64,000 nt of DNA from Nitrospira sp. (GTDB lineage Bacteria > Nitrospirota > Nitrospiria > Nitrospirales > Nitrospiraceae). The stretch covers positions 310,001-374,000 of the forward strand of contig JARFXO010000004.1 of NCBI GenBank assembly GCA_029194665.1, given 5' to 3'. The position numbers and the translations under genes were made by a program. Shown one piece after another: positions 5,915 through 47,507 of the stretch. The notes beneath the pieces are model-generated. The model worked only from the letters and a program-made list of their open reading frames with translations. It was not told the DNA's origin and made no database searches. How positions within the stretch are numbered: position 1 is the stretch's first letter; each line of letters starts with the position of its first letter.

Positions 5915-7027
5915 GTGGGAACCGGCGACGAAATGGTGGGAGCGAGTCCCTCCATCCGCGCAGTCTTTGATTTGGTTCGCAAAATGGCGAGCACCGAGAT
6001 GCCGGTCCTCATTACCGGTGAGACAGGCACCGGGAAGGAATTGACCGCGCGAGCGATCCATGCGCGAAGTCCCCGGAAGCACGGGTCGTTTGTCCCGATC
6101 AGTTGTGGAGCCATTCCGGAAACCTTGTTGGAATCGGAACTGTTCGGTCATGAACGTGGCGCCTTCACAGGGGCCGTTCAACAAAAGAAGGGTAAACTGG
6201 AAGCGGCGGCCGGCGGCACATTATTCCTTGATGAAGTGGGCGATCTGTTGCCCGCCCTACAGGTCAAGCTGCTGCGATTTTTACAGGAGGGCACGTTCGA
6301 ACGGGTCGGAGGACAAGAGACGCTCCATGTCGATGCGCGTGTCCTCGCCGCGACCAATGTCGACCTGAAAACGGCGATCGAAAAGAATCTCTTTCGGGAA
6401 GATCTCTATTACAGGCTCGACGTGTTGCATATTCATCTGCCGCCGCTGAGGGACCGAGGCGAGGACACCTTGCTCATGGCCATGGTCTTTCTCAGGCAGG
6501 CCGCGACGACCTATCGCAAGCAGATCCGAAGCTATACGCCCCAGGCCGTCGATGTGTTGCGTGCCTATTCTTGGCCAGGAAATGTGCGAGAGCTGAGCAA
6601 TCGGGTCCGACGCGCCGTGGTCATGGCGGAGGGAATGGACATTACTCCGTATGACTTAGACCTGCCCGTTGAGAAGCTCCAAGCCGTGGATTCATTGGAT
6701 TCTCTGCGGGCGGCTCACCGACGGATTGAGATGGAGTTGTTGGTGAAGGCGATCAGTTTACATCGAGGGAACTTAACCCGGATGGCCCGAGACTTGGAGG
6801 TGAGCCGCTCGACGTTGTACCGTAAACTTCGAGCCTATGGGCTTGAAAAATTTGTGCCCGCCGCGACGCCGTTGTTATTCGGCTCCAGATCCGAGTCCAA
6901 AAAGTCGGCAAAGCTCCCCTCTCAGGATAACCAGGGCGGGATCTCGCCTGAACCTACAGTAGGGAACCTTCCCTCGGAGCCGTTGCATCAATTTCCCCAA
7001 TCGGTCGAGCCACCGGTTTCGTTATGA
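5915..7027 (+). CDS. Sigma-54-dependent transcriptional activator without receiver domain
   Basis: 370 residues starting at GTG with GGGAGGT four bases before it. The AAA+ domain starts almost at once: Walker A GETGTGKE at residues 35-42, the sigma-54 contacting loop GAFTGA at 82-87, and Walker B LFLDEVGD near 102-109. An arginine-finger/sensor region and WPGNVREL follow. A Fis-type helix-turn-helix (MARDLEVSRSTLYRKL) lies near residues 285-305, and about 65 disordered residues end the protein. NtrC-type regulators usually begin with a 120-residue receiver; it is absent and a stop lies just upstream. The protein may be constitutively active or controlled by a partner, as in PspF. Targets are unknown. 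Confidence 0.9.
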   Translation: MGTGDEMVGASPSIRAVFDLVRKMASTEMPVLITGETGTGKELTARAIHARSPRKHGSFVPISCGAIPETLLESELFGHERGAFTGAVQQKKGKLEAAAGGTLFLDEVGDLLPALQVKLLRFLQEGTFERVGGQETLHVDARVLAATNVDLKTAIEKNLFREDLYYRLDVLHIHLPPLRDRGEDTLLMAMVFLRQAATTYRKQIRSYTPQAVDVLRAYSWPGNVRELSNRVRRAVVMAEGMDITPYDLDLPVEKLQAVDSLDSLRAAHRRIEMELLVKAISLHRGNLTRMARDLEVSRSTLYRKLRAYGLEKFVPAATPLLFGSRSESKKSAKLPSQDNQGGISPEPTVGNLPSEPLHQFPQSVEPPVSL

Positions 7028-11462: not shown

Positions 11463-12107
11463 GTGTTGCGCATGAGCCGGATTCTCCTTGTCCCACTCCC
11501 CCTTGCCTGGTTTCTGCTCGGTGTGACGTGTTTGTCTGCTCTTGCGAAACCTCTCCTTGCAGCACCAGGGGGAATGACAGAGACCTTCCCTGTTCAGAAA
11601 CCCGCACCAGTCGCGGTTGTGATTGAAACAACCGGGAGCGAGGCCGAACTGCGGCAGCAGATGCGTGTCAAGAATCATGTCGGTGAACTCTCGGCGGGAA
11701 CCATCCGGTTTTCAGAGGCACCGATCGGAAGCTTCGGCTTCATCGCGCCACAGTCTCTCGGAATGGCCTTGGTCACGCAAAGTCCCGATCTTGAATTGGA
11801 TCGGGTGGCTTCAACAGCTAATGCCTATGAAATCCATAAGGTCTCGGATGGCAACGGATTGTTGGTTGGATTCATGACTAGGGAAGCGGCATCGCAGATT
11901 TCCCCCAGCGAACGGCCTAAGAACCTGCGCATTGCGCTCTGCTCCAACTCCGTGGAGAAGGCGTCCACCATCGTCGCGGTCCCTTTAAGTAAGTTGATGG
12001 TAGACCGAATGCCGATCAGGCTTGACCCCAAAGAATCAGAGAGTCCGGTAATGCTGAGCATGGATTTGCTCACTACGGCCAACCGGAAGTCGACCACCGG
12101 ACGATAG
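11463..12107 (+). CDS. Secreted protein of unknown function
   Basis: 214 residues from a GTG; an in-frame ATG nine bases later (11472) is an equally likely start. Either gives a signal peptide (hydrophobic core LLVPLPLAWFLLGV, cleavage likely near LLAAP). The mature part has no motif I recognise and contains one cysteine. It lies just upstream of the large multicopper oxidase in the same direction, separated by about 235 bp, so shared control is possible but not shown. Confidence 0.6.
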   Translation: MLRMSRILLVPLPLAWFLLGVTCLSALAKPLLAAPGGMTETFPVQKPAPVAVVIETTGSEAELRQQMRVKNHVGELSAGTIRFSEAPIGSFGFIAPQSLGMALVTQSPDLELDRVASTANAYEIHKVSDGNGLLVGFMTREAASQISPSERPKNLRIALCSNSVEKASTIVAVPLSKLMVDRMPIRLDPKESESPVMLSMDLLTTANRKSTTGR

Positions 12108-12342: not shown

Positions 12343-15300
12343 ATGTCTCACCGTCATTACACATTCACCCGAGTCTTGAGTGGACTCGCCGGCATCGCGC
12401 TGTTCGTGGCGCCGTCGGCCCTGCTCGCTGAGACTCCATCGCATGTGGCGATGAATCATCAACAGGCAGGTTGGGCCGAACAACTGAAGGGGCAGACGAT
12501 CATTGAAGATACAATGGAAGGCCGACCGGAGCGTACTTCCATGGTCGAGCGGCAACACCAGCGCATCATGGAACAAATGGACCATGACGCGACCGTGCAA
12601 CGCACCGGCGGGTATTACAACGATCTGAACATGATGCACCAGTACGGCGCCGGAAATCAGGACGTGCTGCTCATGTCGAACTCCGGCGTCGAACCGGTGT
12701 CGATGTCGGGCGGGCGCTGTCCGGCATCCGCGCCGGTCCGGAAGTACGACGTCTCGGCGATCAACGTCGAGATTTCGCTCAACATGTGGCTCGACTTCTA
12801 CCCTGGGTACATGTACGTCCTGACCGAGAACCTTGAAAAAGTGCGGGCAGAGGAAGCGGCGAATCGAGCGGCCCGCGAGAAGGAAGGTTATGATCCCGGA
12901 GCAGTCAAGAACGGATTGCAGAGCCAGTGGATTCAGCCGTTGGTGATCCGAGGCAATCAGGGCGATTGTGTCAAGTTGACGCTTCGTAATCAACTGGAGG
13001 GCGGCGAGGAGGTCAGTCTCAACATTCATGGCTCCAGCATGATCGTCGCCTCCACGGGCAAGCCGGCGACAACCACGAATCCGGACAGCATCGCGGCCAA
13101 AGATAAGTCCGTGGATCTGGAGTGGTACATTCCGCCGAGCCAACAAGAGGGCGGCCGGCAGTTTCACTCCTACAGCAACGATCGTGAGCTGACGGTCATG
13201 GGCCTGTTCGGGACGTTTGTCGTTGAGCCCAAGGGGTCTGAATATCTCGACCCGTTGGGAACCGGCGAGCCGACGCAGATGGCCAGTGGGTGGCAGGCCA
13301 TCATCAAGAACGGGGCAGGGCCTGACTTCCGAGAATTCGTGATTTTCTATCACGAAGTCGGAGACGAGGCGTTTCGACCGCTGAACAAGAAGGGCGATTT
13401 CATTCCCCAGCGTGATCCCTTGACCGACGTCTATCGGCCGGTGGCCCGTGCCTTAAATTACCGGAGTGAGCCCTTCGGCGTCGACAACATGCAAACGCAG
13501 CACGAGTACTTCGGGTTCGAAGACGAATCCATGGCCTACAGCGCCTATACGTTCGGTGATCCGGCGACGACTATTCCTCGCAGCTATCTGGGTGATCCGG
13601 CAAAGTTTCGCCTCGTGCACGGGGGGTCTGAGGTGTTTCACTCTCACCATCCGCACGGAGGATCGATTCGTTGGCCGCGGAGTCCGCGCGCCATCGACGA
13701 AATGCCTCTGTGGCATACAGCCAAGAACGGGCCGGTCAAATATCCCGTGATTCGGACCAAGTCCGACCGCGTGGACGTGGAAGTCATCGGACCGTCCGAG
13801 ACCATGGACCTGGAAACCGAATGTGGCTCCGGCCTTTGCCAACAGTTGGCCGGGGACTTTCTGTTCCACTGTCACGTCGCTCACCATTACATCGCAGGGA
13901 TGTGGGGCTATTGGCGTGTGTACAACACGCTGCAACAGGGAACGTATCATAATGACGTGATGCCGGATCTGCGTGAGCTGCCGGACCGGGCCGGCCGTAT
14001 TCAAAACGGTATTACTTCGGACCAGCTCATCGGTCGCACCGTGGACTGGTTCGGAAAGACCTTCACCATCGTCAAGGATGGGAAGACCAACTGGAAGGCG
14101 TCGCCTGCCGTCGTCAATCTGAAGGACTGGGTCAACATGCAGCTGCCGCCGCAGGGACAGCCTGGACACCAGAAAGATGAGCGCGCCCAGACCCGTTCCT
14201 ACGACGCAAGCGTGCTGGATTGGGCTTGGCAGGGTGATCGTGCAATGACCGAACGCGAAAACACTGTGGACAATCCGCGGTACAAATCGCCGTCCCCCGG
14301 CAACCGGCTGCCGATTCTTTTTGAGAGCGCCACCGGAAAAATTGCCTGGCCGCATTTGACGCCCCATTTCGGGCGCCGTGTGATCTTCTCTCAGAATCAC
14401 AATCCTGCTCCATGGTTGGATATGATCCATCTTGAGGAGGACGGTTTGCCCAGTTCCTATCCGGCAAAGCCTGGAGAGAATGGGCGATGGAGCATGTGCC
14501 CAGAGAATGCCGGCTCCAAGAAATACAACGTGCATTTCATTCAGACACCGATCACGTTGTCCGATAAGCAGGGCGATACGCCGGCTATCGTGGACAAGGA
14601 CGGGCTGATTTACGTGCTACATGAGGAAGAAGCGCAGACCAGGAAGAGCGACATCAAGTATCCGCTGGTGGTGCGCGCCAATATTTATGATTGTATCGAT
14701 TGGATGTTGACCAGCGAGTGGCCGGACGATGACCATGTCAACTTCCAGGCGTCGAAGATCAATACACATTGGCACTTCTTGCAGTTCGACAATCAATCGT
14801 CCGACGGCGTCATCAGCGGCTTTTCGTATGAGCAATCGGTGCGTCCGTTCACGATGCTGGAGAAGAAGTTGAAAAAGGGCCTGCCTGTGCCGATGAATAC
14901 GGTTTTCACCAAACCGGCGAAGAAGGGCGAGCGGGTCATTACGGTCAAGAACGCCGCTCAATACCATCCGAACGTGGAACTGCTGATCGGAGCAGACAAT
15001 GTCGAAGGTAACGAGATCGGTCGGGTCAAGTCGATCCAAGGCAATCAGATCACCCTCTATCGTCCGCTGAAAAATGCTCATCCGGCCAACGACATCGTGA
15101 CGGTGGAATTCGTCCGGCAGCGATTCTGGGTGGATTCCGACGTCGGGACGGTCTTTTGGCACGACCATGCGTTGGGCCGAGTCACATGGCCTCACGGAGG
15201 GTTCGGCACGATCATCATCGAGCCGGTTGGTTCGACCTATCATAATCCAAAGACCGGCAAGGAGGTCCGGAGCGGCCCGCTTGTGGATATTCGAACAGCG

Positions 15301-17166
15301 GAGCCGGTTGGATATGGGGTGAACGGCAGCTTCCGGGAGTTGCTGGTGCAGCTCAATGACACCGTGCCTCATACGGTGAACATCGTGACGGCTGGCAATC
15401 CTCCGGGTCAGCCGATTGAAGTGGCATTGGAAGCCGGGAAAACAGTATCTTTCCCCATGCCGGAAAAAATGCCGATGGTGCCGATGTCCTTCCTCAACGG
15501 AGGAACCCATACGACAGGTGGTGGGCTGAATTTCAAGGCCGAGCCCATCGCGAGTCGTTTGGCCGCCAATCCTGATTCATCCAAGTTGTTCAGCAGCGCC
15601 GTCCACGGCGATCCCTATACGCCGATGGTACGAGCGTATTTGGGCGATACAGTGGTGTTCCGGTTGCTTCAGACCATGGCGAACGAGACGATGGTATGGA
15701 CGGTTTCAGGCCATACCTATTTAACAGAACGTTATGCGGGCGATGCGAACCGGAAGAACTCGATCCATATCGGCATTGCCGAACGGTACGATCTGGTGGT
15801 GCCGCAAGCAGGTGGACCACGGCTGCAACCTGGAGACTACATCCACTTCAACGGTCGCGGGTCGAAGTTCTCGGAGGGTGCCTGGGGCATCATGCGGGTG
15901 TTAGACAAGGAGGCGCCAGACCTCCAAAAGCTCCCAGCCGGATACAGCCGTCGCAATGAGATTCCGAAGCCGATGGCGGTCTGTCCGGCAGAGGCTCCGG
16001 TGAAAAATTTCAACGTTGTGGCATTGGATTATCCTTCGATGAAGTTGAACCCGAAGGCGCCTGATTCCATCGAAGTCGACTTCGAACGGACGATCCAGAT
16101 GGTCAATCCGAACGCCAAGATTTACGCGTTGGAAGAAGATGCCACGAAGGTGGCCGCTGGTGCCCAGCCGATGCCACTGACCTTGCGGGCGAATGTCGGG
16201 GATTGTCTCAAGGTGAAGCTGACCAACCGGATGAAGGAGAGCCGAGCCTCGTTCTCCGCCATCGGATTGGTGTTCAACCCCAAAGATTCGCTCGGTGCAA
16301 ACGTCGGGAACAATCCCGGCGATCAGACCATCGCGCCGGGAGAGAATCGTACCTACACTTACTACGCGGATCCCTTCCTGGGAGAGACCGCATCATTGGT
16401 GTGGGACTGGGGCAATGTAGTCACCAATCCACGGAACGGCCTTTATGGAGCAGTGGTGATCGGCCCGAAGGGGGCCCAGTATCGCGATCCGAAGACCGGC
16501 GCGGATATTTCAACGAAGAACAGCTGGATAGCCGATGTCATCGTTGATCGGACGATTCAGGGTTATGAACATCGCGTGAATTACCGCGACGTGGCCCTGT
16601 TCTTCCAGGACGAGGACAATATCATCGGGACCAGTTTCATGCCCTATGTGCAAAACACCGCGGGCTTGACGGCCGTCAATTATCGAGCGGAGCCCTATAA
16701 ATTCCGCGAAGAGAAGGGCTGCACCCTCGGGAAGGTGTTCCAGCCTTGTGTCGTCGACAAGCCGGAGGATCCGGCGACGCCGATCATTGAGGCGCATGCA
16801 GGGGATCCCGTTAGAATCCATGTGTTCGGTGCGAGCAACGAACAGAACGGTATGTTCAGTGTCGAACGCCATGAGTGGCCGATCGAGCCGTTCATGCGCG
16901 GAGCAGACATGATCAGCGTGGTGGAGTTCTCCGGGTCGGAGACGCTGGATGCGTTCCTCCCGAGCGCCGGGGGGCCGTTCCGCATGCCGGGTGATTATGT
17001 CTGGAGCAATCAACGGTTACCCTACTCGCAGTCGGGACAATGGGGCTATCTGCGGGTGTTGCCGACTGGAGATCAACGGGTATTGCCGCTCTCCGGTGCT
17101 GTGACAGGAACGAAGAGTGCTGCTGTTGGTGAACCGGTACAGGTCGTTCCGGTAGCAACAAGGTAA
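12343..17166 (+). CDS. Very large secreted multicopper oxidase, MofA-like
   Basis: 1607 residues from the ATG at 12343, chosen because GGAGGG precedes it and it opens directly on a signal peptide (hydrophobic core VLSGLAGIALFVAPSALLA). Copper-site motifs are visible: FHSHHPHG near residue 432, HCHVAHHYIAGMWGYW near 509 (the type 1/type 3 Cys-His pattern with axial Met), THWHFLQF near 808 and FWHDHALG near 939. Three similar modules start with CP-x-x-AP/AG-x-K at about residues 126, 719 and 1214, each followed by a cupredoxin-like GDC or YDC segment. Size and layout recall MofA, the putative Mn(II) oxidase of Leptothrix. It is probably periplasmic or outer-surface. Mn(II) or Cu(I) oxidation is inference. 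A terminator follows at 17206. Confidence 0.85.
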   Translation: MSHRHYTFTRVLSGLAGIALFVAPSALLAETPSHVAMNHQQAGWAEQLKGQTIIEDTMEGRPERTSMVERQHQRIMEQMDHDATVQRTGGYYNDLNMMHQYGAGNQDVLLMSNSGVEPVSMSGGRCPASAPVRKYDVSAINVEISLNMWLDFYPGYMYVLTENLEKVRAEEAANRAAREKEGYDPGAVKNGLQSQWIQPLVIRGNQGDCVKLTLRNQLEGGEEVSLNIHGSSMIVASTGKPATTTNPDSIAAKDKSVDLEWYIPPSQQEGGRQFHSYSNDRELTVMGLFGTFVVEPKGSEYLDPLGTGEPTQMASGWQAIIKNGAGPDFREFVIFYHEVGDEAFRPLNKKGDFIPQRDPLTDVYRPVARALNYRSEPFGVDNMQTQHEYFGFEDESMAYSAYTFGDPATTIPRSYLGDPAKFRLVHGGSEVFHSHHPHGGSIRWPRSPRAIDEMPLWHTAKNGPVKYPVIRTKSDRVDVEVIGPSETMDLETECGSGLCQQLAGDFLFHCHVAHHYIAGMWGYWRVYNTLQQGTYHNDVMPDLRELPDRAGRIQNGITSDQLIGRTVDWFGKTFTIVKDGKTNWKASPAVVNLKDWVNMQLPPQGQPGHQKDERAQTRSYDASVLDWAWQGDRAMTERENTVDNPRYKSPSPGNRLPILFESATGKIAWPHLTPHFGRRVIFSQNHNPAPWLDMIHLEEDGLPSSYPAKPGENGRWSMCPENAGSKKYNVHFIQTPITLSDKQGDTPAIVDKDGLIYVLHEEEAQTRKSDIKYPLVVRANIYDCIDWMLTSEWPDDDHVNFQASKINTHWHFLQFDNQSSDGVISGFSYEQSVRPFTMLEKKLKKGLPVPMNTVFTKPAKKGERVITVKNAAQYHPNVELLIGADNVEGNEIGRVKSIQGNQITLYRPLKNAHPANDIVTVEFVRQRFWVDSDVGTVFWHDHALGRVTWPHGGFGTIIIEPVGSTYHNPKTGKEVRSGPLVDIRTAEPVGYGVNGSFRELLVQLNDTVPHTVNIVTAGNPPGQPIEVALEAGKTVSFPMPEKMPMVPMSFLNGGTHTTGGGLNFKAEPIASRLAANPDSSKLFSSAVHGDPYTPMVRAYLGDTVVFRLLQTMANETMVWTVSGHTYLTERYAGDANRKNSIHIGIAERYDLVVPQAGGPRLQPGDYIHFNGRGSKFSEGAWGIMRVLDKEAPDLQKLPAGYSRRNEIPKPMAVCPAEAPVKNFNVVALDYPSMKLNPKAPDSIEVDFERTIQMVNPNAKIYALEEDATKVAAGAQPMPLTLRANVGDCLKVKLTNRMKESRASFSAIGLVFNPKDSLGANVGNNPGDQTIAPGENRTYTYYADPFLGETASLVWDWGNVVTNPRNGLYGAVVIGPKGAQYRDPKTGADISTKNSWIADVIVDRTIQGYEHRVNYRDVALFFQDEDNIIGTSFMPYVQNTAGLTAVNYRAEPYKFREEKGCTLGKVFQPCVVDKPEDPATPIIEAHAGDPVRIHVFGASNEQNGMFSVERHEWPIEPFMRGADMISVVEFSGSETLDAFLPSAGGPFRMPGDYVWSNQRLPYSQSGQWGYLRVLPTGDQRVLPLSGAVTGTKSAAVGEPVQVVPVATR

Positions 17167-17169
17167 CTT

Positions 17170-17192
17170 GATTGCCTCTCGGAGAGGCAATC
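17170..17192 (+). promoter_or_regulatory. Perfect 10-bp hairpin after the multicopper oxidase stop
   Basis: GATTGCCTCT pairs perfectly with AGAGGCAATC across a CGG loop, four bases after the stop codon. It has no T-run, so it may protect the mRNA 3' end or act with the following terminator. Confidence 0.6.
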
Positions 17193-17205
17193 ACAACTTC
17201 GAAGA

Positions 17206-17230
17206 GGGGGAGGCCTGCGCTCCCCCTTTT
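17206..17230 (+). terminator. Rho-independent terminator of the multicopper oxidase gene
   Basis: A GGGGGAG / CTCCCCC stem (17206-17212 with 17220-17226) with a seven-base loop is followed by TTTT. It separates the oxidase from the cupredoxin-like genes, which therefore need their own promoter or read-through. Confidence 0.8.
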
Positions 17231-17291
17231 CCTTTATGACAGGCATCTGGTAGCATCAGAGAAACTGATCTGAATTGAAAGCGAGAATGCC

Positions 17292-18197
17292 ATGAAAACC
17301 ACGTTGGTTTCAGCCTTGCTCGTGATGGCCTGTGCTTCTACGGCCTGGTCCTATCAAGAAATTGAAGTGAAAGATGGAGGAACCGTCGCAGGAAAAGTGA
17401 GAATGACCGAAGGAAAGCCGATCCCCAAAGGGTTCAACCTTGTCACCTTTCCGGATCCTGTCTATTGCGGAAGAATTTCCACAGGGACCGGGTGGAGGAT
17501 TTTGGACGAGTTCAGCGTTTCGGCAGATCGAGGCCTCAAAGACACAGTTGTGTTGCTGGTCGATGCGGAGAAAGGAAAGCCGTTTAAGTTCGTTCCGCCC
17601 ACCATCGAGGCCCGCGACTGTCGGTTTTTGCCTTTTGTCAGTGTGGTGAAAGACCGAGCCGAGGTTCGAGTCGTCAATATGGATCCGGTGTTTCATGATA
17701 TTCAGGCGTATGAAACGTCGGATCTTGGTCCACGTGTGTTATTCAACACACCGCTTCCGATGAATCCCCTGCACGTGCGGGATGCCGGGTCCGAGAGTCA
17801 TGAGCATCTGGCCGGACAACCGATGGTCGAAGTCGTCAAGATGACGAAGAACCGTCGGTTTTTCGTCATGCAGTGTGGGTTTCATGCCTACATGGAAAGC
17901 TGGGGGTTCGCCGTGGACAATCCCTATTACACGGTGACCGACACGGAAGGACGGTTTTCGCTGTCAGATGTGCCTGCCGGCGAGTATACCTTGATGGCGT
18001 GGCATCCTGGAGTAGGGACGGTGCTAGAAAAGAAAATATCCGTGTCGCCGAAACAGACGCATCAAGTAGATTTCACGTTTGAATCTCCCAAAGGACGTCG
18101 AAGTGTCCATGAAATTGCAGAAAATCCGCATTACGGGTTGGAGGTGCTGGGAAAATCCGTGGAGATTCGTCCGACTCTCCAACTGCAGACCCCGTAA
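17292..18197 (+). CDS. Secreted cupredoxin-like protein with C-terminal carboxypeptidase-regulatory-like domain (copy 1)
   Basis: 301 residues with a signal peptide (cleavage near AWSYQ). A cupredoxin-type metal site is suggested by NMDPVFHD (His135) and MQCGFHAYM (Cys195, His198, Met201), the His...Cys-x2-His-xn-Met order of plastocyanin-like type 1 copper proteins. A beta-sandwich of the carboxypeptidase regulatory type follows (TDTEGRFSLSDVPAGEYTL, residues about 217-235). It is a tandem paralogue of the next gene and follows the multicopper oxidase, which suggests a periplasmic electron carrier or copper donor for it; that function is inference. A Cys pair (CGRIS near 59, ARDC at 110) is conserved in both copies. 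Confidence 0.7.
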   Translation: MKTTLVSALLVMACASTAWSYQEIEVKDGGTVAGKVRMTEGKPIPKGFNLVTFPDPVYCGRISTGTGWRILDEFSVSADRGLKDTVVLLVDAEKGKPFKFVPPTIEARDCRFLPFVSVVKDRAEVRVVNMDPVFHDIQAYETSDLGPRVLFNTPLPMNPLHVRDAGSESHEHLAGQPMVEVVKMTKNRRFFVMQCGFHAYMESWGFAVDNPYYTVTDTEGRFSLSDVPAGEYTLMAWHPGVGTVLEKKISVSPKQTHQVDFTFESPKGRRSVHEIAENPHYGLEVLGKSVEIRPTLQLQTP

Positions 18198-18226
18198 CGC
18201 CGTTCGGTGGAATAGGAGCATGGCCT

Positions 18227-19156
18227 GTGAGTAGAGTCGCCTGCATGTCCGGCTTGACCGCAGCCCTTGTCTTTGCTGTAGCCATTCCAGCACTCACGCC
18301 GGCAAGCGCGTATGATGTGGTAACGGTACGGCAGGGAGGAACCATCGAAGGGACGGTGACGCTCGATGGACCGGTGCCGGACCCGAAGGCGTTCAGTCTG
18401 ATCACGTTTCCGGATCCCGCCTATTGCGGCCGGATCTCCAATGGCAGCGGGTGGCGCTTGCTGCATGACTTTGTTGTCGGTCATCAGGGAGGACTGAAGG
18501 ATGCCATTGTGCTCCTGGAAGGGGTCGAAGCTGGAAAACCGTTTGATGTTTCTGTCCCGTTGATCGAAGCCCGCGACTGCATGTTCCAGCCGTTCATGAC
18601 CATTGTCCGTAATGGGCATGCGGTCGAGGTCATCAATATGGATCCCGTGATGCACGATATTCAGGGCTATGAGACGTCGCTGGAAGCGGGTGCGCGAGTC
18701 TTGTTCAATAGCCCGTTAGTCATGAATCACCAGCATCGTCGAGGGGATATCCATGCAACGCACGACCATGCTCCAGGTGCATCGTTGGTCGGGCCGATTT
18801 ATTTGAACAAGGGGCGACGTACGTTCTACATGCAATGTGGCTTCCATGCCTACATGGAGAGCTGGGCCATGGCCGTGAACAATCCCTACTATGCGCTGAC
18901 AGATGCCGAGGGGAAGTTCTCGATCACCGGCATTCCTCCCGGCACCTATCAGTTGGTGGTATGGCACCCGCAGACAGGACCTGGAACGACAAGGACGGTT
19001 GTGGTGCAACCGGATGGAAAGTTGCGTGAGCAACTGTCGCTACCCGCTCCCAAGGGGAATCGAACCGCGTATAAGGTCATGGATAGCCCTCGGTTCGCCC
19101 CTGAGTCGTTAGGGTACCCTGTTGACATCCAGCCGTTCGTCGAACGTCAACATTGA
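18227..19156 (+). CDS. Secreted cupredoxin-like protein with C-terminal carboxypeptidase-regulatory-like domain (copy 2)
   Basis: 309 residues from GTG 18227, 30 bp after copy 1; an ATG at 18245 is an alternative start. The signal peptide precedes AYDVVTV. The putative copper ligands are kept in the same order: His143 in MDPVMHDIQ, then Cys204, His207 and Met210 in QCGFHAYM. The C-terminal sandwich shows TDAEGKFSITGIPPGTYQL. An extra His-rich loop (NHQHRRGDIHATHDH, residues 167-181) is longer than in copy 1 and could bind metal. Divergence between copies suggests different redox partners or potentials. Confidence 0.7.
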   Translation: MSRVACMSGLTAALVFAVAIPALTPASAYDVVTVRQGGTIEGTVTLDGPVPDPKAFSLITFPDPAYCGRISNGSGWRLLHDFVVGHQGGLKDAIVLLEGVEAGKPFDVSVPLIEARDCMFQPFMTIVRNGHAVEVINMDPVMHDIQGYETSLEAGARVLFNSPLVMNHQHRRGDIHATHDHAPGASLVGPIYLNKGRRTFYMQCGFHAYMESWAMAVNNPYYALTDAEGKFSITGIPPGTYQLVVWHPQTGPGTTRTVVVQPDGKLREQLSLPAPKGNRTAYKVMDSPRFAPESLGYPVDIQPFVERQH

Positions 19157-19369
19157 TAGTCATGCACTTCTCTACTGTGAAGCGGCCTTGCCGATCCGTA
19201 TCTCTCGGCTTCCTCGGCGTTGTTTCAATAGATACCCGGATCAAGTCTGAAATGCGACAACCGCCCATCCCATGAGCCGGAATTCTCCGGCACGTCCGTC
19301 AAACGGGTAACAGATAAATACGATCACACAGGCATGAGTGCAACCGGCCGGCGGCGCGAAGGGTAGAGG

Positions 19370-20728
19370 ATGAATCCGCTGAACATGCGTCAACGTGCGA
19401 TTGTCTTGGTTGCCCTTGCCTGCTGTATTTCTCTGGCTGGGCCTGCGTTTGGCGGAACGGCATCGCAGATTCAGCAGGTTCAGGCACTCTATGACAAGAA
19501 GGAGTATCAGAAGGCTCTTGAAGGGCTGGACAATCTCGATTCTCAGACGTTGGGCGTAGTGGATGTTCGTCGACTCAAGATTCGCACACTTCTGAGACTG
19601 GGCAACCCGAAGAATGCCCTTACAAACTATGACGAGCTTGTGCAGGTCTTGAAGCATGAGGATCCGTCGATCCTTCGTGAGGTCTCACTCGGATTTGTTC
19701 TTGTCCTGACGAAGGATATGCGCGAGCAAATGCGTGGTGCGGCCTATACTGCCCTCAAGGAATGGCACAGTCCTGAGTCGATTCCATTCTTGGAAGATGG
19801 GCTCAGCGACGGATCCGGTCTTGTCCGAGCCTTAGCGGCTGAAGGGCTTGCGAAGCTGGACGAGGGACGCCGTTCGTCCCGATTCCGGCAGGCCTTGGAC
19901 GATCAGGCGGCGTTGGTGAAGGTGGCGGTACTCAAGGGTTTTGCAACGTCCGGTGATCCTTCCGTCATCCCGCTCGTCGAGCCCCTACTGAGTGATTCCG
20001 AGATACGGGTGCGAGTCGCAGCCGCCGAGGTGCTCTGTAATTTCAAACGACCCAGGGGCTGTGAACTGCTCTTTCAGTATGCGAAGGCACCAAATCCAGA
20101 TGGGCGGGCCTCGGCGATTCGTGCCCTGGTTGATCGGCGGTCGACAGAAGTTTTGCCGATTCTCATCGAGTCGAGTGAAGACAAGCAGCCATCGGTACGG
20201 GGGGCTGCCGCCACAGGGTTGGTCCATGTGCCTACTGCCGAAGCAGTCACTGTTCTGACCAGACTGCTGAGAGACCCCCTCCCACCAGTGCGGATCGCTG
20301 CAGCCGTCAGCCTGGGGCAGCTGCGCGGATTTGATGTACGCGCGCCTCTGAATAGGGCTCTCGATGATCGTGACCCGGCAGTCAGAGCCTTCGTCATCGG
20401 CGCGTTGCTGGAGCAGGGTGAACGCTATGAGATGGTAGCCGGCCCTGTGCAGGCTCTCAGGAACACGAATGAGCCGGCCGTTCGCGCTGCCGTGGCACGA
20501 GCCTTGGGGCATGCCGGAGAATCGAATCGAGAGCCGGCACGATCGGCCTCGATGCTGCTGGTTCAGGATACGGTGCCTCGAGTGAGGATTGCGGCGGTCA
20601 AGTCAATGGCAAAGATTGATGGGGTGGATGCGATCCCCCTCCTCAAACAGAGTCTGCACGACGAGGATGATGCAGTTCGGGCAACGGCCGGAGGAGCGCT
20701 GTTGAAGGTTGTGCTCCCGAACAACTAG
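19370..20728 (+). CDS. Exported HEAT-repeat protein
   Basis: 452 residues. A signal peptide (VLVALACCISLAG, cleavage near AFGG) is followed by a TPR-like segment (YDKKEYQKALEGLDNL, residues about 41-56, and LLRLGNPKNALTNYDEL). From about residue 125 to the end come roughly nine HEAT repeats with the pattern DPxVRxxAxxALG. Such solenoids are protein-binding scaffolds. AAGGG lies seven bases before ATG 19370. It follows the cupredoxin-like pair and precedes the SUMF1-domain gene, so a scaffold role for the periplasmic module is plausible but unproven. Confidence 0.85.
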   Translation: MNPLNMRQRAIVLVALACCISLAGPAFGGTASQIQQVQALYDKKEYQKALEGLDNLDSQTLGVVDVRRLKIRTLLRLGNPKNALTNYDELVQVLKHEDPSILREVSLGFVLVLTKDMREQMRGAAYTALKEWHSPESIPFLEDGLSDGSGLVRALAAEGLAKLDEGRRSSRFRQALDDQAALVKVAVLKGFATSGDPSVIPLVEPLLSDSEIRVRVAAAEVLCNFKRPRGCELLFQYAKAPNPDGRASAIRALVDRRSTEVLPILIESSEDKQPSVRGAAATGLVHVPTAEAVTVLTRLLRDPLPPVRIAAAVSLGQLRGFDVRAPLNRALDDRDPAVRAFVIGALLEQGERYEMVAGPVQALRNTNEPAVRAAVARALGHAGESNREPARSASMLLVQDTVPRVRIAAVKSMAKIDGVDAIPLLKQSLHDEDDAVRATAGGALLKVVLPNN

Positions 20729-20839
20729 GCTAGGGACGTACCGTTGCGCCGCTACGTTCATCGATGTCGTTGAACCGGAGTCGTTCCCTATGCGATGGTT
20801 CGATGAACCAGTGCTGTTCCTGTAGAAGGAGTTGTGTCC

Positions 20840-21688
20840 ATGGCCATTCGAGTCCTTGCTGTGTTGGCGCTGTTGGGCTTCTGGCTCAACGCCTCTTTTC
20901 TGTTCGCAAATGAGCCACCGGGGCACGATCCGATCGAGCCGCCGACGAGTCAAGACGGCGCGCCGATGATTGTGGTCCCGGCCGGCTCGTTCCCGATGGG
21001 TGTGCCGGCTGGAGCCCGTGACGGAGGACGCGATGAATATCCACGTCATGACGTGTTCGTCGATACATTTGCGATCGATAAATTTGAAGTCACAAACGGC
21101 CGGTATTTGGAATTCGTGAAGTCCACAGGACATCGCGTTCCACAGAATCCAAGAAATCCGACAAGAAACCTTTGGCAAGGGGAGAGCATCACCGATTCGT
21201 TGACCGATCGACCAGTGATCAATGTTGATTGGTTTGATGCCGAAGCCTACTGTAGATGGGCGGGTAAACGACTCCCCACCGAAGCCGAATGGGAAAAGGC
21301 GGCCAAGGGGACGTCCGATAGGCGATTCCCTTGGGGGAACGTTGAACCGACCTCCAAACATCTTAACTACAACCAACCGTGGATCGGGGAGAAGACTCTC
21401 ATGCCGGTCGGAAGTTATGAGGCGGGCAAGAGCCCGTACGGTCTGTATGACATGGCCGGCAATGTTTGGGAATGGGTCGATGACTGGTACGATGCTCGAT
21501 ATTATGAGAAGAGCCCGAAAAAGAATCCGAAAGGTCCGGACACAGGCACGAAGAAAGTGATCAGGGGCGCGGGTTGGCAAAACGAGACGCCCACGGTCCG
21601 CATCTTTACTCGTGTCGAGAGCGATCCAACGGTCCGAAATGAGTCCACAGGATTTCGTTGCGCGGCCAGCACACCGATGAAACGCTGA
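20840..21688 (+). CDS. Exported SUMF1/formylglycine-generating-enzyme-like domain protein (1)
   Basis: 282 residues from ATG 20840, preferred over the in-frame GTG at 20834 because GGAG at 20828-20831 is well spaced for the ATG only. After a signal peptide comes one SUMF1 domain: MIVVPAGSFPMG, DKFEVTNGRYLEF, KRLPTEAEWEKAA, YGLYDMAGNVWEWVDDWY and the closing STGFRCA. Members can be formylglycine-generating enzymes, ergothioneine/ovothiol-type oxidases or non-catalytic C-type-lectin-like binders. No sulfatase gene is nearby. A convergent paralogue follows at once. True FGE activity needs a second Cys five residues before GFRC-type Cys; here that stretch lacks it, so a classical FGE is unlikely. 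Confidence 0.85.
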   Translation: MAIRVLAVLALLGFWLNASFLFANEPPGHDPIEPPTSQDGAPMIVVPAGSFPMGVPAGARDGGRDEYPRHDVFVDTFAIDKFEVTNGRYLEFVKSTGHRVPQNPRNPTRNLWQGESITDSLTDRPVINVDWFDAEAYCRWAGKRLPTEAEWEKAAKGTSDRRFPWGNVEPTSKHLNYNQPWIGEKTLMPVGSYEAGKSPYGLYDMAGNVWEWVDDWYDARYYEKSPKKNPKGPDTGTKKVIRGAGWQNETPTVRIFTRVESDPTVRNESTGFRCAASTPMKR

Positions 21689-21733
21689 ACCGGGAATCTC
21701 TCGACTACGTGATATCGAGGGGACTCCGTTAGG

Positions 21734-22654
21734 TTAAGGGGAGTTAGAGATCAATGATCGCGCGCACCGGAAGCCGATTGTCGCAGCACGTTGGTCTGGA
21801 GGGGCACCGCCTCTGGTTGCCGTTCGAAGCATGACGCGGTGGCTTTTCCAAGAGCCACCCCGAACACTCTTGTAGCGCCCGGTGGTTGGGCCTGGCGGAT
21901 TGCGTTCCGGCATGTACGCATAGTAGTCGAACCCGAACCAATCCTGTACCCATTCGGCAATGTTGCCCGCCATATGGTGCAAGCCATAGGGACTCTTACC
22001 TTCCTCATAGGAATCGACTGCTGCAAGAATAGGAATCTCATGGACATGATGTTGCCCGAACATCGCGAGTGTGGAGCTGGGAATCGCTTCACCCCATGGG
22101 TAGGAAATCCCTTCAGGCCCCCGCGCCGCCTTTTCCCATTCGGCCTCGGTCGGTAGTCTGGCGTGCTTTGCCGCGCATAGATCGTTCGCTTCTGCCCATG
22201 TGACATAGAGCGCAGGCCAGCGGGTCAAGGTCTGGTCGGAGATGGAATGGACGGTGATGACGTGCCAGAGGAGTTTTTGCAGTTCGCCCGAGGGATGAAA
22301 CTTCTGTTGCTGCAGAAAGGTCACGTATTCTCCGAGGCTCACTTCATCTCGATCCATCTCATAGGCATCCAGCCAGACTCGATGTTGGGGCAGTTCCGTA
22401 TCGTCGAACTGGGTCCGGTTGCCATAGGGTTCGTTGTCGACTCGGTTGCTTCCGAGCAAAAACGTACCAGCAGGGATGGTGATCATCGGCGATGATCTGG
22501 CCAACCTCACGATTCCTGTTAAATGACGGGCTAGTTCTGGTGATGGCTTTGAGCCGGCCTCTCCGATGGAGGGTCTTCCCATGGTGACTACGAGCGCAAA
22601 TGTGATCATAGCCAATACACAAAGGAGGCGGAACGACTTGTCCGAGAGATTCAT
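21734..22654 (-). CDS. Exported SUMF1/formylglycine-generating-enzyme-like domain protein (2)
   Basis: 306 residues on the minus strand, convergent with the first SUMF1 gene and 45 bp from its stop. The signal sequence MNLSDKSFRLLCVLAMITF is followed by MITIPAGTFLLGSN, YEMDRDEVSLGEYVTF, ARLPTEAEWEKAARG, YGLHHMAGNIAEWVQDWF and ATIGFRCAR. It has the same fold as its neighbour but is diverged, with AGNIAEW in place of AGNVWEW. Two such genes back to back in a periplasmic metal module are unusual; a structural or cofactor-forming role is possible. Confidence 0.85.
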   Translation of the reverse strand: MNLSDKSFRLLCVLAMITFALVVTMGRPSIGEAGSKPSPELARHLTGIVRLARSSPMITIPAGTFLLGSNRVDNEPYGNRTQFDDTELPQHRVWLDAYEMDRDEVSLGEYVTFLQQQKFHPSGELQKLLWHVITVHSISDQTLTRWPALYVTWAEANDLCAAKHARLPTEAEWEKAARGPEGISYPWGEAIPSSTLAMFGQHHVHEIPILAAVDSYEEGKSPYGLHHMAGNIAEWVQDWFGFDYYAYMPERNPPGPTTGRYKSVRGGSWKSHRVMLRTATRGGAPPDQRAATIGFRCARSLISNSP

Positions 22655-22805
22655 GACGAGTCCGGATCTCGTTGCACTATAAAGCGGACATCTGTAGCTT
22701 ACAATAGTTAGGGCTGAGGATCAGGACGTTCTGAGTCATTCGACATCCTTCAAAACGGATAGTATGCGGCCCTGATCCGTACATGGCTATGGAAAGGAGC
22801 AGGGA

Positions 22806-23855
22806 ATGAGAACGGATCACCTATTCACCTCTCACTATCTGCGCCCTTCCGTGTCCTGTGTGTGGATCGTCACGATAATGCTCACCCTCCCGCTCCATGC
22901 GGAACCAACACCGCTTAGCCAGGACACGCTTCTTCGAGCAAGGCAGGTGACGGTGGGCATCCTAGCAGACACACAGGATCAACGAATGCCGGAGAAAGCC
23001 GGAAAGGTGATTATCCGAGGAACAGGATTTCATTTGCGCGAAGGCTATGTGATTACCGCGAGACATACCGCAGAGAAACACGAACTCTCGACGGGTACCA
23101 TCGTTCAGAAACAGATTCGCCTGCTCACGAATGATCTCCACGAACTTCCCGCCGATCTCGTGGGCGAGAGTACGTTCATGGATGTTGTCTTGTACCGAGT
23201 GGTCGAACAGCATCGTTCGAAATTGCAGGCAGGGACGTCCTTTGCCTCGGCCGAGGCATCATCCGGGATGGAAGTCTTCACAATCGGTTATCCGCTTGGT
23301 TGGGGGCCGACCATGGCCTTTGGGAAAATCGGAAATACCAATACATTTCTGCAAACCGTCGATACCCGTCTCATTCAGGCCGATCTTTCGACCTGCAGTG
23401 GAAATTCAGGAGGTGGGTTGTTCAACCCCCAAGGAGAAATTGTCGGCATCGTGCATGCCGTGATCCAAACCGATCAAGAAGAGACCCAGGCTCACTGCAG
23501 TCGCCTGACCTTTGTCGTTCCAGGAACCCTTGCGGAGCGCATCATTAACGCAGCTCTTTTAGGTAAGCCTCTTGCCTTCTCCAGACTCGGGGTCCACATG
23601 ACTTCGATAAAAGACGGCACGAAGTTGCGTGTTGCCGTGAAGGACGTCGCGGAACCGGCAAGATCTGCAGGTATTCAGAAACACGATATTTTGTTGGCCA
23701 TCGAGGATACGGAGATTCTTGATGCAGCCCAATTGAAGAATTTCCTCATCGAGCGGACAACCCCTGGCCAGGAAGTGTCGGTCAAAGTGCGCCGAGTCGA
23801 TGTTGATCTGACGTTCCATGTCGTGCTGGGCGGTGAGGGGAGCAAGGCCAAGTAA
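22806..23855 (+). CDS. Exported trypsin-like serine protease with PDZ domain (S1C/DegP type)
   Basis: 349 residues. After a signal segment (about residues 16-33) the catalytic triad can be read: His87 in ITARHT, Asp126 in TFMDVVLY and Ser201 in CSGNSGGGLF. A PDZ domain covers roughly residues 255-340 (AGIQKHDILLAIEDTEI). This is the HtrA/DegP architecture with one PDZ, a periplasmic quality-control or processing protease. The Cys next to the active Ser (CSGNSGG) is less common. It sits at the end of the multicopper oxidase/SUMF1 region and may mature or guard these exported proteins. Confidence 0.88.
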   Translation: MRTDHLFTSHYLRPSVSCVWIVTIMLTLPLHAEPTPLSQDTLLRARQVTVGILADTQDQRMPEKAGKVIIRGTGFHLREGYVITARHTAEKHELSTGTIVQKQIRLLTNDLHELPADLVGESTFMDVVLYRVVEQHRSKLQAGTSFASAEASSGMEVFTIGYPLGWGPTMAFGKIGNTNTFLQTVDTRLIQADLSTCSGNSGGGLFNPQGEIVGIVHAVIQTDQEETQAHCSRLTFVVPGTLAERIINAALLGKPLAFSRLGVHMTSIKDGTKLRVAVKDVAEPARSAGIQKHDILLAIEDTEILDAAQLKNFLIERTTPGQEVSVKVRRVDVDLTFHVVLGGEGSKAK

Positions 23856-37390: not shown

Positions 37391-37602
37391 TCGCCGATGA
37401 CGGTCCTTGGGGCTACAAGGTATCTCGCCGAATCGGTTGATTAGGTCGGCGAGGGCCCGTGATACAAGCTGAATGGGCGACTGTAATTTCGACGCTCTTG
37501 CAGGGGCAGGTGATAGCTCTGCAAAAGCGTTTTTTTTTGCTTGTCGGTCCGTTTCTCGATCGCGTTGCCGCCCGGACGAGAATCTCTCTTAATGACAGCG
37601 TG

Positions 37603-38097
37603 ATGGACGTAATGAACATACAGGCAGGCTCGATTCGCGCTGTATTCATCATGAGCGCGGGACTATTGGCGAGTTGCGGAGACCAGGGTGGAGAGGGGCC
37701 GATTGTGCCGCCACCGCCGGCTCCTGCTGAATATGCCGAGAAGCATATGCCGGCAGATTGGTGGGCGGATGCTCAGAAGCTGGAAGAGGGACGCAAGCTC
37801 TTCATCGGTGAGACGAATCCCGACGTAAACTGTGCCAGTTGTCACGGGAAAGACGGGAAGCCCGTGAAGGCAGGCGCCACTGATTTCAGAAACCCTGAGC
37901 GCATGAAGCTGTATTCGGACTCTGTCTGGTTTTGGCGTATTTCCGAAGGAGTGCCGAATACCAAGATGAAAGGGTGGAAGAGCAAGCTCTCAGAAGAGGA
38001 TCGATGGAAGCTCGTGCTCTATGAGCGGAATTTTGGACTGGCTGGGAAGACATGGAATGAAGAAATGAAGCAATGGGCCGAGGCCGTCATTAAGTGA
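37603..38097 (+). CDS. Monoheme c-type cytochrome, lipoprotein
   Basis: 164 residues from ATG 37603; the longer frame from 37459 adds 48 residues that do not look like a leader. The short leader ends in a lipobox (GLLASC), so the protein is probably membrane-tethered on the periplasmic side. A proline-rich linker (PPPPAPA) leads to the class I cytochrome domain with one CASCH heme site and a distal Met in NTKMKGW. It opens the respiratory cluster but is separated by 390 bp from the next gene. Confidence 0.8.
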   Translation: MDVMNIQAGSIRAVFIMSAGLLASCGDQGGEGPIVPPPPAPAEYAEKHMPADWWADAQKLEEGRKLFIGETNPDVNCASCHGKDGKPVKAGATDFRNPERMKLYSDSVWFWRISEGVPNTKMKGWKSKLSEEDRWKLVLYERNFGLAGKTWNEEMKQWAEAVIK

Positions 38098-38488
38098 CTG
38101 TAGGGTAAGGTTGTCGGTGGCAGGATGCTTCGCGCCTTCCGGCCTTTCCTCTTGTGGAATCATAAGGTGAGCCTTTTGTATGCGATTTGAGGCCGTCAAC
38201 CATGTGTCGGGTTTTTTGCGGGCTACCAGGGGATTCTCCTAGCGGTAAGGCTTGGGGACTCTGGGATACTCTAGCCGGTCGATAAGGTCGTATGAAGTAG
38301 GGTTGCGGCAATCGCATGGAGCTTGACCTGTAATGGCGAGATCTTAGCGCTCTCAGGGGCTTCAGGCGCTCTGGTCGGGTGGTGGCCGAGACCCATTAAT
38401 GTAGAGAAAAATATCCTGTGGAAATTCGAGTAAGTATGAAAGCAAGATCCTTGACCAAGTTCTTAAAGTAGGGGGGCATCGAGGCATC
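38098..38488. other. Intergenic region upstream of the respiratory operon
   Basis: This 391-bp spacer probably holds the main promoter of the operon. Candidate sigma-70-like boxes such as TTGACC near 38322 and 38451 lack well-spaced partners, so none is called. No gene is supported. Confidence 0.4.
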
Positions 38489-40198
38489 GTGAAAAAACTG
38501 TCGAGCGGTCTCATGGCTCTCATTGTGTTGTTCTCCCTGTGCGCGGCAGCCACCGGTGTCTGCGCTCAGGAGGTTGGGGCGTCTTCGGTGGAGCTTCCGT
38601 ATACAGGCAATCGGACGGCTGTATGGGTCGTCGCTCAACTCCATATTTTATTTGCCGCGTTTATCCTCGGTGCACCGATCTTCGTCGTCATTTCAGAATG
38701 GTTGGGTTACCGCAAGCAGGACCCTCGGTATGATCGCCTGGCTAAAGAGATCACCAAGGTTACGGTCATTCTCTTTAGTATGACGGCTGTGACGGGCGGC
38801 TTGTTTATTTTTGTCCTTCTTGCCGCCTACCCACAATTCACGACCTCATTCATTAATCAGTTTTATATGGTGTTCGCGGTCATGTATCCGGCGCTGTTTA
38901 TCGCCGAGACGATTTTGATGTATGCCTACCTCTACACCTGGGATGTGTGGAAGGGTGAAAGGAAGGGGCGTCACATTGCTCTCGGCGTGCTCTTGAATCT
39001 TGTCTGTCTGCTCATCCTATTTGTCATCAACGGTCCCACGTCGTTCATGAATACACCGCCGAAGGCCGAAGGAGTTTCGCCGCAGGATTTCATCGCGGCG
39101 GCAACCTTGTGGGACAAGATTGCGAACCAAAGTTGGTTCCCTCTGAGCCTCCACCGAATCGATGGGAATGTGGCATTCGGTGGGTTTATCGCCGGGATGA
39201 TCGCCGCCTACATGTACATGGGGGCGAAGTCGCAGGAGGAGCGAGCCTACTACGATTGGATGGGGTTCGCCGCCATCTGGATCGCCGTGGGTGGGTCGCT
39301 CTTGCAGCCGTTCACGGGACTTTTGTTGGCCTATGAAATGTGCGATTACGATTTTTCATTCTGCCCATATATGATGGCCGATCAGCTCTCCATGTTTTTT
39401 GAAATGCAGGGCATGATGATCGGGTTGCTGTTCTTGGCCATCAACTATTACAGTTGGCTCAGCGTCAAGCGAATTGAAGGGGCCGAAAATGTTCGGATGA
39501 CGATTCTGGCTCCCATTGTCTTGGTGGTCTTGCTACCCGTCACGATGTGGGTCATGAATAAATATTGGATTCCGGATCCAATGTCGTTGGTGTTCCTTCT
39601 GCCCTTAACGTTGTCGCCCTTCTTATTGAGCCGGTTCGTTCCGAAGACCGTCTCCGCACGGACCGTCATCAAGGTCGGCTTTATCGTCATGCTCGTGAGC
39701 GACGCGGTCTGGCTTACACCCGGTGGGTTCGTGGCCACCGGCACCGATATGCCCGATGAGCTGAAATTGCCGGAAGGGTGGGATTTTCTGGCATCGATGC
39801 CGGCAAAGCTTTCTGCGATCTTGACGTTGGTGTTCGTGACGGTCGTCAATTACGTCTTGTATAACAGAACCATCAAGCAGGGCACGATCCTCTGGGGGAA
39901 AATCGATTTCGTGTCCCAGTTTGTTCTGATTTTCTTGGCGTTCATCTCCACATGGACGATGGGGTTGATGGGGGCGGTCCGGTCCCTGCTCAAAAAATAT
40001 TTCCACACCTATAGTCTGGTCTCGGACCTCAGTGCGGAGTCTTTTACTCCGACGCTCTCCTATTCGGCCTGGTGGATCACGGCGATTACCGTGTTCTTTA
40101 TTGCCATCGTCAGTGTGGCTGCCCTAGTAGCTCTTCGGCCTTCAGTTTCGAGGGTGCGAGAGCCTGAGGGGAGTCCGGTCCCGGTCGGGGCCAAATAA
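38489..40198 (+). CDS. Cytochrome bd-type quinol oxidase subunit I-like membrane protein (1)
   Basis: 569 residues from GTG 38489. After a signal-like segment there are about 12-14 membrane helices. AQLHILFAAFILGAP places His52 at the position of the CydA N-terminal heme ligand, and SLHRIDGNVAFGG places His222 near the second. The usual Q-loop and a CydB partner are absent. It sits upstream of Rieske and cytochrome b and shares its plan with the protein at 44182. I infer a membrane subunit of a hybrid bc-type complex rather than an oxygen-reducing bd oxidase, but oxygen or quinol reactivity is not excluded. Confidence 0.8.
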   Translation: MKKLSSGLMALIVLFSLCAAATGVCAQEVGASSVELPYTGNRTAVWVVAQLHILFAAFILGAPIFVVISEWLGYRKQDPRYDRLAKEITKVTVILFSMTAVTGGLFIFVLLAAYPQFTTSFINQFYMVFAVMYPALFIAETILMYAYLYTWDVWKGERKGRHIALGVLLNLVCLLILFVINGPTSFMNTPPKAEGVSPQDFIAAATLWDKIANQSWFPLSLHRIDGNVAFGGFIAGMIAAYMYMGAKSQEERAYYDWMGFAAIWIAVGGSLLQPFTGLLLAYEMCDYDFSFCPYMMADQLSMFFEMQGMMIGLLFLAINYYSWLSVKRIEGAENVRMTILAPIVLVVLLPVTMWVMNKYWIPDPMSLVFLLPLTLSPFLLSRFVPKTVSARTVIKVGFIVMLVSDAVWLTPGGFVATGTDMPDELKLPEGWDFLASMPAKLSAILTLVFVTVVNYVLYNRTIKQGTILWGKIDFVSQFVLIFLAFISTWTMGLMGAVRSLLKKYFHTYSLVSDLSAESFTPTLSYSAWWITAITVFFIAIVSVAALVALRPSVSRVREPEGSPVPVGAK

Positions 40199-40248
40199 TC
40201 ACAGCGTGAAGCATTTGGTGAGCCAATTGGAATTCGTATGAGGACAAT

Positions 40249-41058
40249 GTGTTCAAGAAGCTAACAATCGGGCTTGTGGTCGGTGGCGCACTTGTGGGTA
40301 TCACGCACTCGCAGGAGGTACCGTTCGATTTCCAAAAGTTGTTCTTTATCTTCGCGCTGATCGGGGCTGTTGTCTTTGTGATGCTTGACGCGCAGCCGAT
40401 CGGAATAATGAGCGGCGGGAAGTCCGTCTTTGCGGTCACCGCGTTCTGGGTCCTGCTGATTACGGCCTGCATCGCGGGCGCTTCCCTGTTGCCGCAGTTT
40501 AATCCCGAAGACGAACGGGCCAAAATCGACAAGCTTTTGGGAAAGGAACGGGCTGCCTCGCAGAAGGGCAAGGCTGAGGAATTGATCGCTCGGGCCAAGG
40601 CACTCGATGAGCAGGTCAAAGCCCTGGAAGAGCGCCTCAAGGGATTGGGGGGAGGTCAGGCTGCATCTGCATCACCGGCGCCTCCGGCCGGGGAGAAGCC
40701 TTCTTCGACAGCAGCCACGTCTGCTGGAGGGGGTGGGGATTTCATGAAGGTGGGCGAGGAGCAGTGGCAATTGCAAGAATGCTACAACTGCCACAAGTTG
40801 AGGGGTGAGGGCGGGAAGAAACGAGGTCCTGAATTGGATAACATCGGCTCGTTCTTGACGGTCGAGGAGATTCAACAGAAAATCTACGACCCCAAGAGCA
40901 TCATGGCTGAGGGGTATGAGAAGGAATGGCAAAAGGGCATCATGCCGGACAAGTTTAAGGACCTCATGGAGCCCAAAGAAATGCAGGCCCTGGCTGCCTG
41001 GTTGGGTACCTTCAAGAACACCTCGGTGAATACCCCGAAGCCGATCAAGAAAAAATGA
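40249..41058 (+). CDS. Membrane-anchored monoheme cytochrome c with coiled-coil
   Basis: 269 residues from GTG 40249 (GAGG five bases before). Three hydrophobic segments near the N-terminus (residues 5-20, 30-45 and 60-78) are followed by a charged coiled-coil (about residues 85-135), an Ala/Pro/Gly linker and a C-terminal class I cytochrome domain with CYNCH near residue 179 and a likely Met ligand in GIMPDKF. Its stop overlaps the Rieske start. The long stalk would let the heme reach between complex subunits. Confidence 0.85.
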   Translation: MFKKLTIGLVVGGALVGITHSQEVPFDFQKLFFIFALIGAVVFVMLDAQPIGIMSGGKSVFAVTAFWVLLITACIAGASLLPQFNPEDERAKIDKLLGKERAASQKGKAEELIARAKALDEQVKALEERLKGLGGGQAASASPAPPAGEKPSSTAATSAGGGGDFMKVGEEQWQLQECYNCHKLRGEGGKKRGPELDNIGSFLTVEEIQQKIYDPKSIMAEGYEKEWQKGIMPDKFKDLMEPKEMQALAAWLGTFKNTSVNTPKPIKKK

Positions 41059-41993: not shown

Positions 41994-42004
41994 AAACTGG
42001 CGGC

Positions 42005-43132: not shown

Positions 43133-43151
43133 TCCTTTGAGTAGGTTGGTT

Positions 43152-44156: not shown

Positions 44157-44181
44157 TTTGCGAGGTGATGAGGTGAGTGCC

Positions 44182-46032: not shown

Positions 46033-46105
46033 AGAGAGTTTTGAATTATGAGTTTTAGGTTTAATACGCGGTAGGCAGCATTCAGCACATAACATTCGAG
46101 GGCCC

Positions 46106-46729: not shown

Positions 46730-46739
46730 GGAGGAACGT

Positions 46740-47456: not shown

Positions 47457-47507
47457 AGGAGAGGAACAGCGCGAGAGAGTGAGTGGTGTAGAGAGAACGA
47501 GGCCAGC

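Follow-up and report, generated by a model that had tools for sequence, protein, structure and literature searches.

A giant multicopper oxidase (MCO) belongs to the core gene set of the class Nitrospiria, and nearly throughout this class its gene is followed by genes for putative blue-copper proteins of its own (Cups). The main nitrite oxidizers and the first Mn(II)-oxidizing chemolithoautotrophs belong to the class of Nitrospira, and so do the comammox bacteria. A class-core oxidase that is genetically linked to blue-copper proteins of its own, and that lies beside NXR in some lineages, is therefore a concrete target for two questions, namely manganese oxidation by Nitrospira and the route by which Mn(II) electrons reach the respiratory chain in Ca. 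Manganitrophaceae. The oxidase and its possible role in manganese oxidation have already been published. Two features described below appear to be new, the oxidase-cupredoxin unit that spans the class and the nested cupredoxin; no description of either was found in the searchable literature (most subscription journals lay outside the search).

Gene organization of the locus

The window, i.e. the whole stretch of DNA that was analyzed, comprises 64,000 nucleotides (G000:C4:310001-374000) of a 4.8-Mb Nitrospira genome. Its open frames and gene order were found as given in a preliminary description of this DNA, except that in the gene series after the oxidase the second SUMF1 gene lies on the minus strand. 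Pfam also returned the domains listed there, with Cu-oxidase_3 in MCO, CarboxypepD_reg in CupA and CupB, HEAT, FGE-sulfatase in both SUMF1 proteins, and Trypsin_2 plus PDZ in the protease. The features of the locus are as follows.

11463–12107, plus strand: 214-residue protein of a family without a name, just 5' of MCO and kept in close relatives (17 loci)
12343–17166, plus strand: MCO, exported multicopper oxidase of 1607 residues; modules at approximately residues 120–560, 713–1205 and 1208–1590
17292–18197, plus strand: CupA, exported, 301 residues; predicted type-1 cupredoxin nested within a CarboxypepD_reg-like domain, with the ligands H135, C195, H198 and M201
18227–19156, plus strand: CupB, paralogue of CupA (46% identical) with the same ligands
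19370–20728, plus strand: exported HEAT-repeat protein, a frequent neighbor of MCO-Cup in f1, the family to which the window belongs
20834–21688, plus strand: SUMFa, exported, with an FGE-sulfatase domain
21734–22654, minus strand: SUMFb, second protein with an FGE-sulfatase domain, a lineage-specific neighbor
22806–23855, plus strand: HtrA/DegP-like serine protease with PDZ, a lineage-specific neighbor

The five plus-strand genes from MCO to SUMFa are separated by intergenic gaps of 29–213 bp, a spacing that is compatible with a single transcript. Since SUMFb is encoded on the minus strand, one transcript is possible only for MCO-CupA-CupB-HEAT-SUMFa. A sigma-54 activator is encoded upstream of the unit (window positions 5915–7027), and related activators occur at 42 of the 116 oxidase loci analyzed. 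A scan for the sigma-54 promoter pattern gave no hit ahead of the unit, nor were matches clearly more frequent than expected by chance.

Architecture and copper sites of the oxidase

As had been suggested, MCO consists of three mutually similar modules of about 400–500 residues each (HHalign probability 99.6–99.9). Its closest solved relative, and the sole close one, is MnxG from the MnxEFG complex of Bacillus sp. PL-12 (PDB 9bxa; phmmer E 5e-80, profile E 1.6e-122). The homology extends over most of its length, and the proteins agree in a multi-domain metal-oxidase architecture and in the placement of the type-1 motifs, the C-terminal-type motif preceding the N-terminal-type motif in MCO. However, MCO reaches only 141.7 bits with the NCBIfam MnxG equivalog NF041487, for which the cut-off is 3100. 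Since this cut-off is far from reached, MCO represents a distinct MnxG-related lineage and not an established Mn oxidase. It also differs from MnxG in its size (1607 versus ~1220 residues) and in its putative partners, which are cupredoxins and not recognizable MnxE and MnxF proteins. Judged by Pfam domains, neither MnxE nor MnxF was recognized among the neighboring genes.

The copper ligands were assigned from sequence only, by the canonical MCO pattern. All four motifs, given here with their window positions, are invariant in 25 homologues.

13639–13656, plus strand: H433-x2-H436-x-H438, predicted T1/T2/T3 copper ligands
13867–13902, plus strand: H509-C510-H511-x3-H515-x4-M520, predicted T3-T1-T3 and T1 ligands with the axial Met
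14767–14775, plus strand: H809-x-H811, predicted trinuclear cluster
15160–15168, plus strand: H940-x-H942, predicted trinuclear cluster

These 12 residues, predicted to bind four coppers, are unchanged down to homologues of 51% identity, and show complete predicted ligand sets for the type-1 and the trinuclear copper sites. The order of the canonical motifs is permuted, with those starting at H433 and H509 in the first third of the protein and those at H809 and H940 further on. In an AlphaFold2 model of residues 120–1215 (pLDDT 60) the type-1 region is of low confidence.

The nearest named oxidase is that of Nitrospira sp. LK70, which is 98% identical. A second, diverged oxidase of the window genome (G000:C1:1122261-1128334) is 55% identical to MCO and has its own, shorter Cup downstream.

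Cup proteins are predicted to contain a nested cupredoxin

The His...Cys-x2-His-x2-Met pattern that had been noticed in the two tandem proteins downstream of MCO was confirmed in both, and 196 of the 205 unique Cup ORFs show it in full. The C-x2-H-x2-M spacing occurs in all 200 unique Cup ORFs with a readable motif. Moreover, H135, C195, H198 and M201 are invariant across 27 homologues, and Cups show complete predicted sets of type-1 ligands. In amicyanin the copper ligands Cys92, His95 and Met98 are arranged in the same C-x2-H-x2-M spacing. The earlier view of this spacing as unusually tight consequently does not hold; amicyanin and plastocyanin are themselves among the best structural matches.

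Cupredoxins were among the top Foldseek matches of the CupA model, which has a pLDDT of 88. Residues 98–208 align to cupredoxins (4hcg, Z 10.3; plastocyanin 7pcy, Z 9.8; amicyanin 1mda, Z 9.0), and beta-sandwiches of the Cna-B/rhamnogalacturonan-lyase type align to residues 28–266. The Pfam match to CarboxypepD_reg comprises residues 212–263 of CupA, corresponding to profile positions 30–81 only. Taken together, the split fold matches and the partial Pfam match indicate that in the modeled CupA the cupredoxin is inserted within a carboxypeptidase-regulatory-like domain. Cups share the cupredoxin fold and the His-Cys-His-Met type-1 ligands with amicyanin and plastocyanin, with the spacing of the former, but unlike these proteins they have about 300 residues, the cupredoxin being placed inside a CarboxypepD_reg/Cna-B-like domain. 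Weaker Cup homologues were found in 25 Nitrospirota genomes outside the class Nitrospiria as well as on rhizobial plasmids. Hence, Cups as a family are not confined to the association with the oxidase.

Conservation of the oxidase and its neighbors

The oxidase was found (E <= 1e-100) in 184 of 186 genomes and in 44 of 45 genera of the class Nitrospiria, usually in two copies. In a survey of the whole phylum, matches outside the class were obtained in three genomes only, all of them weak. Linkage was determined for 118 non-identical oxidases with at least 3.5 kb of downstream sequence, which are not an unbiased sample of loci, some genomes contributing both copies. Within 3.5 kb downstream, 93 of these 118 copies have a Cup on the same strand, with a median gap of 189 bp, and 55 have two or more downstream Cups; an opposite-strand Cup within 3.5 kb was found for none of the 118.

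The proposed link between the oxidase and the cupredoxin-like pair is borne out by the same order in other Nitrospirota, down to an oxidase identity of about 58%. In the oxidase tree the linkage extends across nearly all clades, other families and orders included. Since Cups lie beside the oxidase in nearly the whole class, the association of the two is genuine and old. Most of the oxidases without adjacent Cups fall in a single subclade, which contains copy A of N. moscoviensis and of N. defluvii. Because of this loss, the oxidase may not always need Cups in cis. MCO of the window falls in the broader type-A clade of this subclade, yet it retains its Cups.

The proposal that all genes of the series form one system is only partly supported. 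It is borne out for the oxidase-Cup core, but its HEAT/SUMF1/HtrA part is less general: among the 105 oxidase copies for which at least 7 kb downstream were available, a HEAT protein is linked in 48, a same-strand SUMF1 protein in 26 and HtrA in 13. The HEAT protein is a common but narrower neighbor, and SUMF1 and HtrA are local additions. SUMFa and SUMFb share the FGE-sulfatase domain with the formylglycine-generating enzyme (FGE). In an alignment of SUMFa with solved FGEs, both catalytic Cys residues are absent, so that SUMFa is probably not a formylglycine synthase. For SUMFb, judged from its own sequence, the catalytic Cys pair was not found either. A role of both proteins as true formylglycine synthases was therefore rejected. 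The HtrA-like protein contains Trypsin_2 and PDZ_2 and scores below the NCBIfam subfamily cut-offs. In the PADLOC defense library, the HEAT protein and the HtrA-like protein gave matches that were discarded as generic repeat or protease similarity.

Proposed function and alternatives

We propose, tentatively, that MCO is a copper oxidase that reduces O2 and that Cups are its dedicated partners for the transfer of single electrons; a protective oxidation of metals in the periplasm would be the likeliest task. The core of this putative periplasmic copper redox unit would be the MnxG-related MCO together with one to three amicyanin-type Cups encoded directly downstream. Its type-1 copper would accept electrons singly and its trinuclear site would reduce O2 to water, while Cups would exchange electrons, or copper, with MCO. 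The likeliest substrate of MCO would be a periplasmic metal ion, e.g. Mn(II), Cu(I) or Fe(II), and its oxidation may shield NXR as well as the respiratory chain against reactive forms of oxygen or metal. The HEAT, SUMF1-like and HtrA proteins could assist in assembly or quality control, in a set that differs between lineages. It is the clear homology to MnxG that suggests a metal-oxidizing function of MCO.

For the oxidase of N. defluvii and N. gracilis, a Mn(III)-based protection against ROS is proposed by Lücker et al. 2013 (PMC3578206), who also report a linkage to NXR genes for Nitrospina. The two N. defluvii copies are included in our dataset (G055); the accessible part of that paper describes no class-wide MCO-Cup unit, nested cupredoxin or genomes lacking nxrA. 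Later, MnxG was reported in MAGs of nitrite oxidizers, without activity data (PMC12070406, PMC11995701). Ca. Manganitrophaceae carry two novel MCOs per genome, as stated in the accessible part of PMC9040806, which presents them without their gene neighborhood. They match the oxidase described here in GTDB class and in copy number, and are probably the same oxidases.

Since the oxidase lies beside nxrAB or bd-like genes in relatives, respiratory electron transfer is suggested at least as much as metal oxidation. Cups would then act as soluble carriers between the oxidase, NXR and the bd-like membrane proteins, and electrons from nitrite or metals would enter or leave the chain via copper proteins. 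An oxidase beside nxrAB was found in N. moscoviensis and at loci L070/L071 and L186-L190. The order is nxrA-nxrB-regulator-NirK-like-MCO in N. moscoviensis (L079), and in L070/L071 nxrAB is followed by MCO-Cup-HEAT. In the f2 family genomes (L187, L188), nxrA-RR-nxrB lies 5' of MCO-CupA and a second nxrA downstream. The common version of the cluster reads MCO-CupA-CupB-(214-aa protein)-HEAT-Cup3-O-methyltransferase-DUF420-PCP_red-(363-aa protein)-Cyt_bd_oxida_I-like. Together with the periplasmic carrier that, according to PMC9040806, Mn lithotrophy through the two Manganitrophaceae MCOs would require, these neighbors make the respiratory reading a close rival. In the window genome, however, no oxidase was found beside nxrAB, and both NXR and the bd-like gene that usually ends the cluster are encoded far away from MCO-Cup, the part from Cup3 to the bd-like gene being split off to another contig (G000:C6:106593-122215; L183, L185). 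Furthermore, a good nxrA match is present in 96 of 136 genomes and 19 of 36 genera of the class, and the oxidase is also present in the absence of an nxrA match, both in other orders and in a closed genome of the same genus (G110), which has both oxidases and may belong to a Nitrospira-group bacterium that perhaps does not oxidize nitrite. The unit is thus not simply an accessory of nitrite oxidation, and a dependence of the oxidase on nitrite oxidation was rejected in view of its wider distribution compared with nxrA. On balance, we regard a respiratory role as possible, but rather doubtful. A bolder version, in which the MnxG-type oxidase and the nested cupredoxins form a hitherto unrecognized periplasmic copper electron-transfer branch of the class Nitrospiria and pass electrons to or from bd-like oxidases or NXR, appears improbable. 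If true, MCO would be an energy-linked metal oxidase, and the branch might provide the carrier that Manganitrophaceae lack for electrons from Mn(II).

Multicopper oxidases are known to occur together with small copper-binding proteins of the periplasm, and with this agrees a function in copper handling, in which MCO would detoxify Cu(I) in the manner of CueO or PcoA and Cups would buffer or deliver copper. The nearest MCO homologue found outside Nitrospirota, on a Streptomyces plasmid (31% identity), is indeed followed by a copper resistance gene annotated as CopC. Beside the unit, however, CopB/CopC/CopD, CusF and a copper ATPase were not recognized, three further Cu-oxidase_3 genes of the window genome could act as ordinary copper oxidases, and the full type-1 sites fit electron transfer better than copper storage. 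We therefore consider copper handling unlikely. Ceruloplasmin, a six-domain oxidase, oxidizes NO to nitrite, and a corresponding reaction of MCO beside NXR and NirK would suit N. moscoviensis and L190, where nxrAB and a NirK-like gene adjoin the oxidase; according to PMC6478695, it is not known which enzyme serves as NO oxidoreductase in comammox bacteria. Given that the oxidase is class-wide and extends beyond genomes with NXR, NO oxidation is very unlikely.

Further observations on neighboring genes

At L187 (509–15698), near-identical nxrB genes and response regulators flank MCO-CupA, i.e. the nxrA-RR-nxrB unit is duplicated. A NirK-like two-domain copper oxidase is encoded directly 5' of a type-A oxidase in N. 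moscoviensis (L079, 8995–9912) and in a relative (L190, 7760–8761). The C6 segment of the window genome contains Cup3, the methyltransferase, DUF420, PCP_red, the 363-aa protein and two bd-like genes, and is interrupted by an opposite-strand gene for a protein of 821 residues. A supposedly stop-containing Cup on the same contig proved to be the intact Cup3 of 264 residues. Within the window, a respiratory cluster at 37459–48335 encodes two Cyt_bd_oxida_I-like proteins, a Rieske protein, cytochrome b, four cytochromes c and a protein of the ethylbenzene-dehydrogenase type (EB_dh); it resembles the bd-like oxidase and complex III genes described for nitrite oxidizers.
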